Of a stretch of DNA of 37,684 bases, positions 11,240 through 31,026 are shown piece by piece. Each line of letters begins with the position of its first letter. The first letter of the stretch is position 1. The position numbers and the translations under genes were made by a program. The notes beneath the pieces are model-generated. The model worked only from the letters and a program-made list of their open reading frames with translations. It did not search any database and was not told where the DNA came from. Source of the DNA: Thermoleophilia bacterium (GTDB lineage Bacteria; Actinomycetota; Thermoleophilia; Gaiellales; Gaiellaceae); assembly GCA_025925195.1 (NCBI GenBank), contig JAICLU010000006.1, forward strand, positions 1-37,684. Direction: 5' to 3'.

Positions 11240-11644
11240 TTATCGCAGGATCAGCTGACTGCAGCGAAAGAGCGCCATCGTGCGGGCCTCGGCGTCCCGC
11301 ACCGTCGCGTCCCAGAGCTGCGTCGTCCGGCCGCCGTGGACGAGCCGCGCCTCGCAGGTGATCGTGCCCTCCTTCGCGGAGCGGAGGAAGTTCGTCTTCA
11401 GCTCGATCGTCGTGAAGCCGATCGCTCCGTCGGGCAGGGTCAGGATGCAGCCGTAGCCGCACGCGGTGTCGGCGAGCGACACGACGGTGCCGGCGTGCAC
11501 GTAGCCGTTCGGCGCAAAGTGGTCGCGCCGCAGCTCGAGCCGCGCGCGGACGAGGCCGTCGTCCGCACCGTCGAACTCGATGCCCAGGAGGCCCGGTAGC
11601 AGGTCGGCGCCGGCCTGCTGGAGTGCGTCGAGCGAGACGTCCAC
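11240..11644 (-). CDS. Hotdog-fold thioesterase (PaaI/YdiI family)
   Basis: This 134-residue single hotdog domain has the PaaI-type active-site region NGYVHAGTVVSLADTACGYG (about residues 46-65), followed by ELKTNFLRSAKEG and VHGGRTTQLWDATV. The family hydrolyses acyl-CoA thioesters as tetramers in the cytosol. The exact substrate is not predictable; aryl- or hydroxyaryl-CoA is common. The GTG start is preceded at 7 nt by TAGGGT on this strand. That box shares its TA with the -10 box of the divergent smpB gene. The small membrane protein gene follows. Confidence 0.88.
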   Translation of the reverse strand: MDVSLDALQQAGADLLPGLLGIEFDGADDGLVRARLELRRDHFAPNGYVHAGTVVSLADTACGYGCILTLPDGAIGFTTIELKTNFLRSAKEGTITCEARLVHGGRTTQLWDATVRDAEARTMALFRCSQLILR

Positions 11645-11651
11645 GGGGGCG

Positions 11652-11661
11652 ACCCTACACT
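11652..11661. promoter_or_regulatory. Overlapping divergent -10 elements between the thioesterase gene and smpB
   Basis: The decamer ACCCTACACT reads as TACACT on the plus strand (11656-11661, 6 nt before the smpB GTG at 11668) and as TAGGGT on the minus strand (11657-11652, 7 nt before the thioesterase GTG at 11644). The two boxes share the central TA. Both transcripts would be leaderless. Confidence 0.55.
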
Positions 11662-11667
11662 TGGCGC

Positions 11668-12123
11668 GTGGCCGAGAAGCTCATCGTCGACAACCGCCGC
11701 GCGCGGCACGACTACCACCTCTCCGACAAGGTCGAGGCCGGCCTCGTGTTGAGCGGGACCGAGGTGAAGTCTCTGCGGAGCGGGCAGGCAACGCTCCAGC
11801 AGGCCTACGCCGAGGTGCGCGAGCGCGAGGCGTGGTTGAACGGGCTGCACATCCCCGAGTACGTGCAGGGGAACCGGTCGAATCACGATCCCGACCGGCC
11901 GCGGAAGCTCCTGTTGCACCGCCGCGAGATCGAGCGGATGTACGCCCAGGTGCGCGAGAAGGGCTTCACGGTCGTGCCGACGCGCGTCTACTTCAAGGAC
12001 GGCAAGGTCAAGGTCGAGATCGCGCTCGCGCGCGGCAAGGAGGTCAGGGACAAGCGGCGCGACATCGCCGAGCGCGACGCGAAGCGCCAGATGGATCGCG
12101 CGCTCAAGGAGGCGCGGCGGTAG
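11668..12123 (+). CDS. smpB: SsrA-binding protein SmpB
   Basis: SmpB binds tmRNA and places it in the A site of stalled ribosomes for trans-translation. The 151-residue length and motifs fit: VDNRRARHDYHLSDKVEAGL, GTEVKSLRSG, then HIPEY and NHDPDRPRKLLLHRREI, KGFTVVPTRVYFKDGKVKVEIALARGK split over the next segment, and the basic tail RDIAERDAKRQMDRALK that folds into the mRNA channel. The GTG start lies 6 nt after TACACT. The tmRNA gene begins 26 bp after the stop, the classical smpB-ssrA pairing. Confidence 0.97.
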   Translation: MAEKLIVDNRRARHDYHLSDKVEAGLVLSGTEVKSLRSGQATLQQAYAEVREREAWLNGLHIPEYVQGNRSNHDPDRPRKLLLHRREIERMYAQVREKGFTVVPTRVYFKDGKVKVEIALARGKEVRDKRRDIAERDAKRQMDRALKEARR

Positions 12124-28343: not shown

Positions 28344-29045
28344 CTACGCCGTCTCGCCGCCGTCGATCGAGATCGTCGCGCCCGTGAAATAGGCGCCTTC
28401 GTCGCTCGCGAGGAAGGCGAAGAGCGCCGCGATCTCTTCCGGCGACGCGTGGCGGCCGAGCGGGATGCCGGCATTGACCTCGGCGAGCATCGCGTCGGTG
28501 TATTCGCTGCGTTGCATCGGCGTCAGCACGTAGCCCGGACACACTGAGTTCACGCGCACCTTCGGCGCCAGCTCGAGCGCCATCGTCTTCGCCAGCAGGA
28601 TCACGCCGGCCTTCGACGCGTTGTAGTCGGCATAGAACGCGTGCCCGGTCAACCCGTTTGTCGACGCGGTCATCAGGATCACGCCGCCGTCGCCCGCCAC
28701 CATCCGCCGGGCCGCCTGCTGGGCGCAGTGGAAGACGCCCGTCAGGTTCACGTCGAGCACCCGGCGCCAGTCGGCTTCCTCGATCTCGAGGAACGGCTTG
28801 CGGATCGAGATGCCTGCGTTCGCCACGAGCACGTCGACGCCGCCGAGCAGCTCGTCGACGCGCGCGAACGCCCGCTCGACGGAGGCCGCGTCGGCCACGT
28901 CGCACAGCAGACCGGGGTCGTCGACGTCCCGGTCGGCGATCGCCGCGACGCGCGCACCTTCCTCGACGAACCGCTGCGCGGTCGCCGCGCCGATGCCGCT
29001 CGTGCCGCCGGTGACGACGACCCGCTTGCCCGCCAGACCCTTCAT
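28344..29045 (-). CDS. Short-chain dehydrogenase/reductase (SDR)
   Basis: This 233-residue classical SDR has the cofactor motif VVVTGGTSGIGAATAQRF, NAGI, Ser in ILMTASTNG, YNASKAGV for the catalytic Tyr and Lys, then RVNSVCPGYVLTPM and YFTGATISIDGGE at the C-terminus. Acidic residues after the second strand (ADRDVDD) suggest NAD preference. The substrate is unknown. The ATG lies 7 nt after TAGACT on the minus strand, whose box overlaps the -10 of the divergent aminotransferase gene. Divergent pairing suggests a shared pathway. Confidence 0.92.
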   Translation of the reverse strand: MKGLAGKRVVVTGGTSGIGAATAQRFVEEGARVAAIADRDVDDPGLLCDVADAASVERAFARVDELLGGVDVLVANAGISIRKPFLEIEEADWRRVLDVNLTGVFHCAQQAARRMVAGDGGVILMTASTNGLTGHAFYADYNASKAGVILLAKTMALELAPKVRVNSVCPGYVLTPMQRSEYTDAMLAEVNAGIPLGRHASPEEIAALFAFLASDEGAYFTGATISIDGGETA

Positions 29046-29052
29046 CGGGACG

Positions 29053-29062
29053 AGTCTATGAT
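29053..29062. promoter_or_regulatory. Overlapping divergent -10 elements between SDR and aminotransferase genes
   Basis: The decamer AGTCTATGAT reads TATGAT on the plus strand (29057-29062, 6 nt before ATG 29069) and TAGACT on the minus strand (29058-29053, 7 nt before ATG 29045). The boxes share the central TA. The layout is the same, to the base, as at 11652-11661. Confidence 0.6.
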
Positions 29063-29068
29063 CGACGG

Positions 29069-30367
29069 ATGGGCGAGGTGTCCGTGACGAGGAGCACCGA
29101 GCGCTCGGCGGCGCTGTTCGAGCGGGCGCAGCGGGCGCTCGTCGACGGTGTCTCGTCGCCGTCCCGCGGCCCGCTCAACTACCACCCGCACCCGCTCTAC
29201 ATGGCGCGCGGCTCCGGCGGCCGGATGACCGACGTCGACGGCAACGAGTACGTCGACCTCATGCTCGCCTTCGGCGCGCTCATCCACGGGCACGCGCACC
29301 CGCGCCTCGTCGACGCGATGCAGCGCGCGGTCGCCGACGGCGCCCTCACGGCGACGGCGAGCGAGGTCGAGGTCGAGGTTGCCGAGCGGATCTCGGCCGT
29401 GCACCCGTCTGCCGAGCGCGTCCGCTTCGCCAACACCGGCACCGAGGCCTGCATGGCCGCGCTCCGGCTCGTGCGCGGGTACACAGGCCGCTCGAAGATC
29501 GTGAAGTTCGAAGGCCACTACCACGGCTGGGCCGACGCCTACTCGCTGCGCTCCAACATGCCCGGCGGCCCTGACGTCGACTCCCTCGGCATCCCGGCAG
29601 GCGCGCTCGCCGACACGCTCGTCGTCCCCTGGAACGACGCCGACGCCGTCGAGCAGGCGCTCGACGCGAACCGCGGCGAGGTCGCGGCGATCGTCACCGA
29701 GCCGGTGATGGCGAACCTGGGCGTCATCCCGCCCGTCGACGGCTATCTCACGACCTTGCGCGAGCTCGCGGACGCGCACGGTGCGCTGCTCTACGTCGAC
29801 GAGACCGTGACCGGCTTCCGGCTCGGGGCCGGCGGCGCGTGCGGGCGCTTCGGCGTTCGCGCCGATCTCGTCACCTTCGGGAAGGCGCTCGGCGCCGGCT
29901 TCCCGGTCGCAGCCATCGCCGGACGCGCCGACGTGATGGACGCGCTCGCCGGCGGCGCCGTCCTCCATTACGGGACGCAGAACGCGAACCCCGCGCTGCT
30001 CGCCGTGGTGCGCGAGTCGCTCGCCCTGCTCGACGCGCCCGCGTACGCCGACCTCGAGCGGCTCGCCGACACGCTCGTGGCAGGTCTGCGTGACGCGCTC
30101 GCCGGCGAGAACGTGCTCGTGCAGTACGTCGGCCCGATGCTGCAGGTCTACTTCACCGACGGAGAGACGGACGCGATCAGGTCGTATCGCGACTTCGGCG
30201 CGCACGTCGACCGCGACCGCTTCAACAGCTTCGTGCACGCGCTCTTCGACGAGGGCGTCTACACATCGCCGTCGCCGGCGCTCCACTCGGTGCTCTGCAC
30301 CGCGCACACCGACGAGGACGTCGAGCGCGTCGTCACCGCCGCCCGCGCCGCCGCCGCACGCATCTGA
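29069..30367 (+). CDS. Class III PLP aminotransferase / aminomutase (HemL-like)
   Basis: This 432-residue PLP enzyme resembles glutamate-1-semialdehyde aminomutase and related class III aminotransferases: SPSRGPLNYHPHP, MTDVDGNEYVDLMLAFGALIHGH across the N-terminal core, FANTGTEACMAALRLVRGYTGR, KFEGHYHGWADAY, LLYVDETVTGFRLG, and Lys272 in VTFGKALGAGFPVAAIAG as the Schiff-base lysine. The following two genes are overlapping dehydrogenases, so a catabolic aminotransferase is more likely than a heme-pathway hemL; no symbol is given. The ATG follows a TATGAT box at 6 nt (leaderless). Confidence 0.9.
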   Translation: MGEVSVTRSTERSAALFERAQRALVDGVSSPSRGPLNYHPHPLYMARGSGGRMTDVDGNEYVDLMLAFGALIHGHAHPRLVDAMQRAVADGALTATASEVEVEVAERISAVHPSAERVRFANTGTEACMAALRLVRGYTGRSKIVKFEGHYHGWADAYSLRSNMPGGPDVDSLGIPAGALADTLVVPWNDADAVEQALDANRGEVAAIVTEPVMANLGVIPPVDGYLTTLRELADAHGALLYVDETVTGFRLGAGGACGRFGVRADLVTFGKALGAGFPVAAIAGRADVMDALAGGAVLHYGTQNANPALLAVVRESLALLDAPAYADLERLADTLVAGLRDALAGENVLVQYVGPMLQVYFTDGETDAIRSYRDFGAHVDRDRFNSFVHALFDEGVYTSPSPALHSVLCTAHTDEDVERVVTAARAAAARI

Positions 30368-31026
30368 AAACCGCCGTCGTCACCGGGGCCGCGTCCGGCA
30401 TCGGCGCCGCGATCGCAAATCGCCTGCGCGCCGACGGATACGACGTGCGCGGCATCGACCGCGCCGAATGCGACGTCACCGCCCTCGACGCGACCGCGGT
30501 CGCCTTCGCAGGTCTCGACGGGCTCGACCTGCTCGTTCCCGCGGCCGGCATCGCCGAGCGCCATACCGCGGAGGAGACGTCGGACGCGGAATGGGACGCC
30601 GTGATCGCGGTCAACCTGACGCACGTCTTCCGCTTCTGCCGCGACGCGCTGCCGCTGCTACGCAGGCGACGCGGCTGCATCGTCACCATCGGCTCGGGGT
30701 GGGGGATGGTGGCCGGCCCGCGCGCCGTCAGCTACGCAGCGTCGAAGGCAGCCGTCGTCAATCTCACCCGCGCGCTCGCGATCGACCACGGGCCCGAAGG
30801 CATCCGCGTCAACTGCGTGTGCCCGGGCGACACGGACACGCCGATGCTCCATCGCGAGGCGGCGCAGCTCGGCGAGACGATCGACGCGTCGACCCGCCCG
30901 TTGCGCCGAATCGGGACGCCGGCGGAGGTCGCTGCCGCCGTCGCCTGGCTCGCCTCCGACGAGGCCTCGAACGTGACGGGCACGACGCTCGTCGTCGACG
31001 GCGGGTCGCTCGCGGGCACGGCGTGA
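30364..31026 (+). CDS. SDR family oxidoreductase, CTG start
   Basis: This 220-residue SDR begins, if CTG 30364 is the start, M-K-T-A-V-V-T-G-A-A-S-G-I-G, the perfect SDR N-terminus. The CTG overlaps the aminotransferase TGA as CTGA, just like the ATGA/GTGA couplings elsewhere in the window. The next in-frame standard start (GTG 30445) would remove the whole cofactor motif. Other motifs are PAAGI, Ser in IVTIGSGWG, YAASKAAV, RVNCVCPGDTDTPM and NVTGTTLVVDGGS. Its stop overlaps the next GTG (GTGA). The substrate is unknown. Confidence 0.88.
   Translation: MKTAVVTGAASGIGAAIANRLRADGYDVRGIDRAECDVTALDATAVAFAGLDGLDLLVPAAGIAERHTAEETSDAEWDAVIAVNLTHVFRFCRDALPLLRRRRGCIVTIGSGWGMVAGPRAVSYAASKAAVVNLTRALAIDHGPEGIRVNCVCPGDTDTPMLHREAAQLGETIDASTRPLRRIGTPAEVAAAVAWLASDEASNVTGTTLVVDGGSLAGTA

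Follow-up and report, generated by a model that had tools for sequence, protein, structure and literature searches.

Opposed -10 hexamers sharing one TA step in short divergent gaps of a Thermoleophilia genome point to compact bidirectional promoters of leaderless genes

The 23 bp between the start codons of a divergent short-chain dehydrogenase/reductase (SDR) gene and aminotransferase gene are very probably, on sequence evidence, a bidirectional sigma-70-type promoter consisting of two overlapping, opposed TANNNT hexamers, from which both mRNAs would be leaderless or nearly so. Comparison across the genome and its relatives indicates that what is conserved is the register in which the -10 hexamers overlap, not the 24-bp distance between the starts.

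Results

Two divergent gaps with one layout

The whole stretch of DNA analysed (the window, 37.7 kb) is contig C9 of a 2.62-Mb draft genome of a soil bacterium (G000) that is 82% complete. Genome-wide counts refer to a 1.36-Mb sample in which genes were called by a codon-usage scorer that ignores promoter motifs, while pattern searches count sequence and not genes. The earlier note had placed the SDR and aminotransferase starts 24 bp apart, like those of a second divergent pair in the window (thioesterase/smpB), and this distance was confirmed. Positions 29043-29071 read CAT (29043-29045, the minus-strand SDR start)-N7-AGTCTATGAT-N6-ATG (29069), and positions 11642-11670 read CAC (11642-11644)-N7-ACCCTACACT-N6-GTG (11668); both gaps are thus 7+10+6 (Table 1). 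Both starts of the SDR/aminotransferase gap are ATG, as had been noted; those of the thioesterase/smpB pair are both GTG, not ATG. The hexamers TATGAT (plus) and TAGACT (minus) overlap with one TA step common to both, as had been described. Both ten-base regions are copies of ANNNTANNNT, which occurs only twice in the window, each time at a divergent gap (11652-11661 and 29053-29062). As 8.1 copies are expected from shuffles, the motif is depleted elsewhere in the window, and the related pattern TANNNTA has 0 copies there.

Table 1. Coordinates of the two divergent pairs and their -10 elements in the window
Feature	Position	Strand	Evidence or remark
Hotdog-fold thioesterase, GTG start	11240..11644	-	Pfam 4HBT E=5.9e-18
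Second shared -10 region ACCCTACACT	11652..11661	.	+ TACACT (N6), - TAGGGT (N7)
smpB (SsrA-binding protein), GTG start	11668..12123	+	Pfam SmpB E=2.1e-59; NCBIfam NF003843, 205.6 bits (cut-off 130)
SDR gene, 233 aa, ATG start	28344..29045	-	Pfam adh_short_C2 E=1.8e-58
SDR -10 hexamer TAGACT	29053..29058	-	N7 to ATG; ortholog with same register
Putative shared bidirectional -10 region AGTCTATGAT (ANNNTANNNT)	29053..29062	.	1 of 2 window copies; 10/10 bases identical in G002 ortholog L128
Aminotransferase -10 hexamer TATGAT	29057..29062	+	N6 to ATG; TANNNT enriched before starts in genome
Class III aminotransferase, glutamate-1-semialdehyde aminomutase-like, 432 aa, ATG start	29069..30367	+	Pfam Aminotran_3 E=3.4e-61; NCBIfam PRK00062.1, 407.5 bits (cut-off 398)

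There is no room for a Shine-Dalgarno leader ahead of the SDR ATG. No convincing -35 element was seen by eye in either direction, and any -35 of either gene would fall within the opposite gene. Promoters dominated by the -10 element can function without a -35. Downstream of the aminotransferase gene lies a second SDR gene (30364-31026), whose Rossmann N-terminus, LKTAVVTGAASGIG, starts at a CTG that shares bases with the stop codon of the aminotransferase gene (CTGA). Because no ATG, GTG or TTG occurs before 30445, this gene may initiate at the CTG and have its translation coupled to that of the aminotransferase.

The TANNNT hexamers lie 6-7 nt upstream of the starts in both gaps, the position at which this motif is enriched genome-wide. 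Ahead of 692 likely first genes TANNNT was found 71, 50, 33, 29 and 26 times at N6, N7, N8, N9 and N10, compared with 2-5 times for the average other A/T (W) arrangement at N6-N10 (5.3 at N6), and it fell to background by N5 and N11. Enrichment at N6-N7 was also observed before co-directional genes with gaps of <25 bp (63/675 in G000), which suggests that there are many internal leaderless promoters within apparent operons of this genome.

The shared -10 motif is concentrated in short divergent gaps

The distribution of ANNNTANNNT in the genome bears on whether the motif is the promoter of one gene only, its reverse hexamer being a coincidence in an A/T-containing island. Short divergent gaps amount to 3,395 bp, 0.25% of the 1.36 Mb, and hold 25 of the 71 genome copies, a concentration that argues against such a coincidence; the end-swapped control TNNNTANNNA has 1 of its 76 copies in these gaps. 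TANNNTA behaves likewise, with 13/30 copies in short divergent gaps against 5/444 for its swapped control. A test that required no gene caller gave the same picture: ANNNTANNNT lies between two open coding frames, at N6-N10 on both sides, in 15 cases, whereas the remaining 15 ways of placing A and T at its four A/T positions averaged ∼0.3.

Start-to-start distances of the 196 divergent pairs peak at 24 bp (11 pairs) and then 18 bp (8 pairs), while the remaining bins from 12 to 36 average 2 (Poisson P ∼8e-6 for 24 and ∼1e-3 for 18). In 16 congeneric genomes the 24-bp pattern was matched 117 times versus 10 for the reversed control, a ∼12-fold excess. The scan for an excess of 24-bp divergent pairs proposed in the earlier note thus returned one, in the genome and in its congeners, and the view that the arrangement is a reusable divergent-promoter architecture rather than chance was borne out. 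In the sampled genome the exact pattern coincided with real divergent open reading frames (ORFs) in 8/8 matches at 24 bp and 2-3 of 4 at 23 bp. A looser gene caller, which returned 504 divergent pairs and admitted shadow ORFs, was dropped. Divergent distances of 1-30 bp in G000 are skewed to multiples of three (30 versus 19 and 8); the skew persisted after gene recalling, is absent at 101-300 bp, and may be spurious, arising during gene calling from antisense frames of GC-rich DNA.

Two registers account for the overlapping hexamers

TANNNT is present on both sides in 35 divergent pairs of the genome sample. Measured from one T(-12) to the other, 14 of these pairs have an offset of -1, 8 of -6 and 1 of -12, while the remaining 12 have offsets of +7 or more, where the hexamers do not overlap. 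Offsets -1 and -6 therefore make up 22 of the 23 overlapping pairs. The former is ANNNTANNNT, with its shared TA, and the latter is TANNNTA, the register behind the 18-bp peak. Only these two offsets let two specified bases serve both strands, which reduces the number of specified bases from six to four; two opposed TANNNT hexamers cannot be placed at offsets 0, -2, -5 or -10. If both spacers are 6 nt long, offset -1 predicts transcription start sites (TSSs) 23 bp apart and offset -6 predicts 18 bp. The opposite-strand -10 elements thus overlap and have key positions in common, the hallmark of symmetric -10 bidirectional promoters. Beyond the sharing of bases, selection for two-sidedness as such is not apparent, as the 35 two-sided promoters compare with 30.6 expected under independence.

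The design of the motif makes it partly symmetric, and it could be read as a palindromic operator, bound by a repressor or an activator, that overlaps the promoters by happenstance. We attach almost no probability to this: the sites have only A, TA and T in common, the NNN triplets and the flanks vary freely between gene pairs, unlike in an operator, and the symmetric positions are exactly -12, -11 and -7 of TANNNT.

The 24-bp distance follows from the spacers

The earlier note had taken the 24-bp distance as the defining geometry, and a special architecture of this length, for example one phased by the reading frame or bound by a dedicated protein, would explain why the histogram of the sampled genome is highest at 24 and why 8 of 9 N6/N7 sites in the caller-free test lie at 24. 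The first gene caller had also put 24 far above 23 and 25, but that preference did not survive pattern counts across the genus and the order. Across 61 relatives the exact patterns at 23, 24 and 25 bp were matched 152, 242 and 100 times, and the reversed controls yielded 18, 45 and 28 matches. The control-subtracted ratio of 134:197:72 is that expected if either gene takes N6 (0.58) or N7 (0.42) independently of the other (p=0.98; for the genus by itself p=0.45 and for the remainder of the family p=0.04), and the 24-bp class is large because two routes, N6+N7 and N7+N6, yield it. Relatives share orthologous sites, so these counts do not represent independent events. The 23- and 25-bp classes are equally real, and an 18-bp class exists as well, the TANNNTA register giving 199 matches versus 50 for the control in the 16 congeners. 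The distance in orthologous smpB pairs, moreover, varies between 24 and 28 bp while their shared -10 register stays unchanged. The notion of a special 24-bp architecture is thereby largely refuted, and we regard it as very improbable.

Pattern enrichment was seen at the genus, family and order levels. In 23 genomes from other families of the class a hand tally gave 37 matches versus 31 for the control, with no clear class-wide excess, and the claim of enrichment is therefore limited to the order.

The second hexamer accompanies the divergent gene

An ortholog of the SDR/aminotransferase pair was found in just one relative, G002, the closest that carries the pair, where the genes (locus L128) are also divergent and their products are 89% (SDR) and 79% (aminotransferase) identical. 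The gap in L128 reads CAC-GACGGCG-AGTCTATGAT-CGGGCA-GTG, in which both start codons and both spacers have changed while the 10-mer is intact. Retention of all ten bases is a further argument against a promoter that serves one gene only.

The smpB locus provides a further comparison. The named relatives of the SmpB protein are from Thermoleophilia MAGs, a Gaiellaceae MAG included, with a best identity of 88%, which probably places the present lineage in Gaiellales. The plus-strand TACACT upstream of smpB is retained in 14/14 congeners. The minus-strand -10 is completed by an A, minus T(-7), which is present in 7/7 congeners with a thioesterase start directly opposite and in 0/7 without one (Fisher p=6e-4, a value that ignores shared descent); over all smpB loci it occurs in 7/7 with a divergent gene and 4/27 without (Fisher p=6e-5, likewise ignoring shared descent). 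In the seven congeneric thioesterase/smpB pairs the minus spacer is always 7, while the plus spacer varies from 6 to 10 and the start distance from 24 to 28. The best smpB tree requires at least three changes of the minus T(-7) state, two of them forced by well-supported branches, which argues against one inherited accident, although few events are involved. A plus-strand TANNNT needs just one extra A to create the reverse TANNNT, and this A does occur in those 4 of 27 loci where smpB has no divergent neighbour, as a one-gene promoter with a fortuitous reverse hexamer would allow; the 7/7 versus 0/7 split within the genus, however, leaves that explanation very improbable.

In two congeners without an adjacent thioesterase start (L161 and L164) the thioesterase gene is located ∼570 bp away in the same orientation. 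L164 has a reverse CAT beside smpB that is preceded by a GGAGGT-like Shine-Dalgarno sequence, which points to insertion of a leadered gene; the minus -10 is absent.

Discussion

In the bidirectional promoter proposed here, the TA step shared by the two -10 elements would supply -12T and -11A of each strand, and RNA polymerase, most likely with the housekeeping sigma factor, would use it in either orientation. Steric exclusion would allow the polymerase to bind in one orientation at a time and never in both, a view drawn from PMC12825309. Each transcript would begin at, or within a few nt of, its own start codon, making both leaderless or nearly so. With transcripts that start at or near their start codons, the start-to-start distance would report the TSS spacing, 23 bp plus the 0-5 bp contributed by the spacers, and starts 24 bp apart would predict TSSs ∼23 bp apart if the mRNAs are leaderless, within the 7-25 bp by which divergent TSSs are separated in promoters of the symmetric -10 type.

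Such a promoter is a compact form of a bidirectional type already described, not a new kind. In the bidirectional promoters of Warman et al. (2021), as presented in PMC12825309 and PMC10268837, overlapping and opposed -10 elements of bacteria and archaea share key bases, and the common TSS spacings given for Escherichia coli are 18, 10 and 23 bp (PMC12825309). The promoters proposed here resemble these in their opposed -10 elements, and their two registers predict 18 and 23 bp, two of the three published spacings. They differ in that protein-coding genes lie on both sides and the mRNAs of both appear to be leaderless; if so, the promoter would fill the entire intergenic region and the spacing could be read off from the distance between the start codons.

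Mycobacterium tuberculosis offers another parallel. The account in PMC3898074 describes mapped leaderless TANNNT promoters without a -35 motif, whose TSS is at or near the start codon and which serve about a quarter of genes. The elements described here likewise combine a TANNNT -10 and no -35 consensus with a start-proximal TSS, which in this case is predicted from spacing. That account calls closely juxtaposed divergent promoters common and cites prpD and its divergent regulator, both leaderless; the shared-TA register does not figure in the passages considered here. The divergent M. tuberculosis genes lysG and lysE also have overlapping -10/-35 motifs, mapped by RNA-seq, but their intergenic region is 108 bp and regulator-controlled, and only the second lysE promoter is reported to be leaderless (PMC5648196). 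We found no experimental study of the present lineage in the literature.

As polymerase in either orientation would occlude both start codons, doubly leaderless shared -10 promoters could act as a widespread mutually exclusive switch, with paired genes selected for anti-correlated or noise-limited expression and the choice of partners shaped by this coupling. We consider that extension of the bidirectional-promoter reading unlikely.

At smpB the bidirectional arrangement amounts to a natural experiment, in which the -10 of the second strand is there only when a divergent gene adjoins. More broadly, the 18- and 23-bp spacings established by RNA mapping in model bacteria would be readable from the distances between start codons in an uncultured lineage with many leaderless genes, and these distances may thus allow bidirectional promoters to be assayed from sequence alone in large numbers of genomes.
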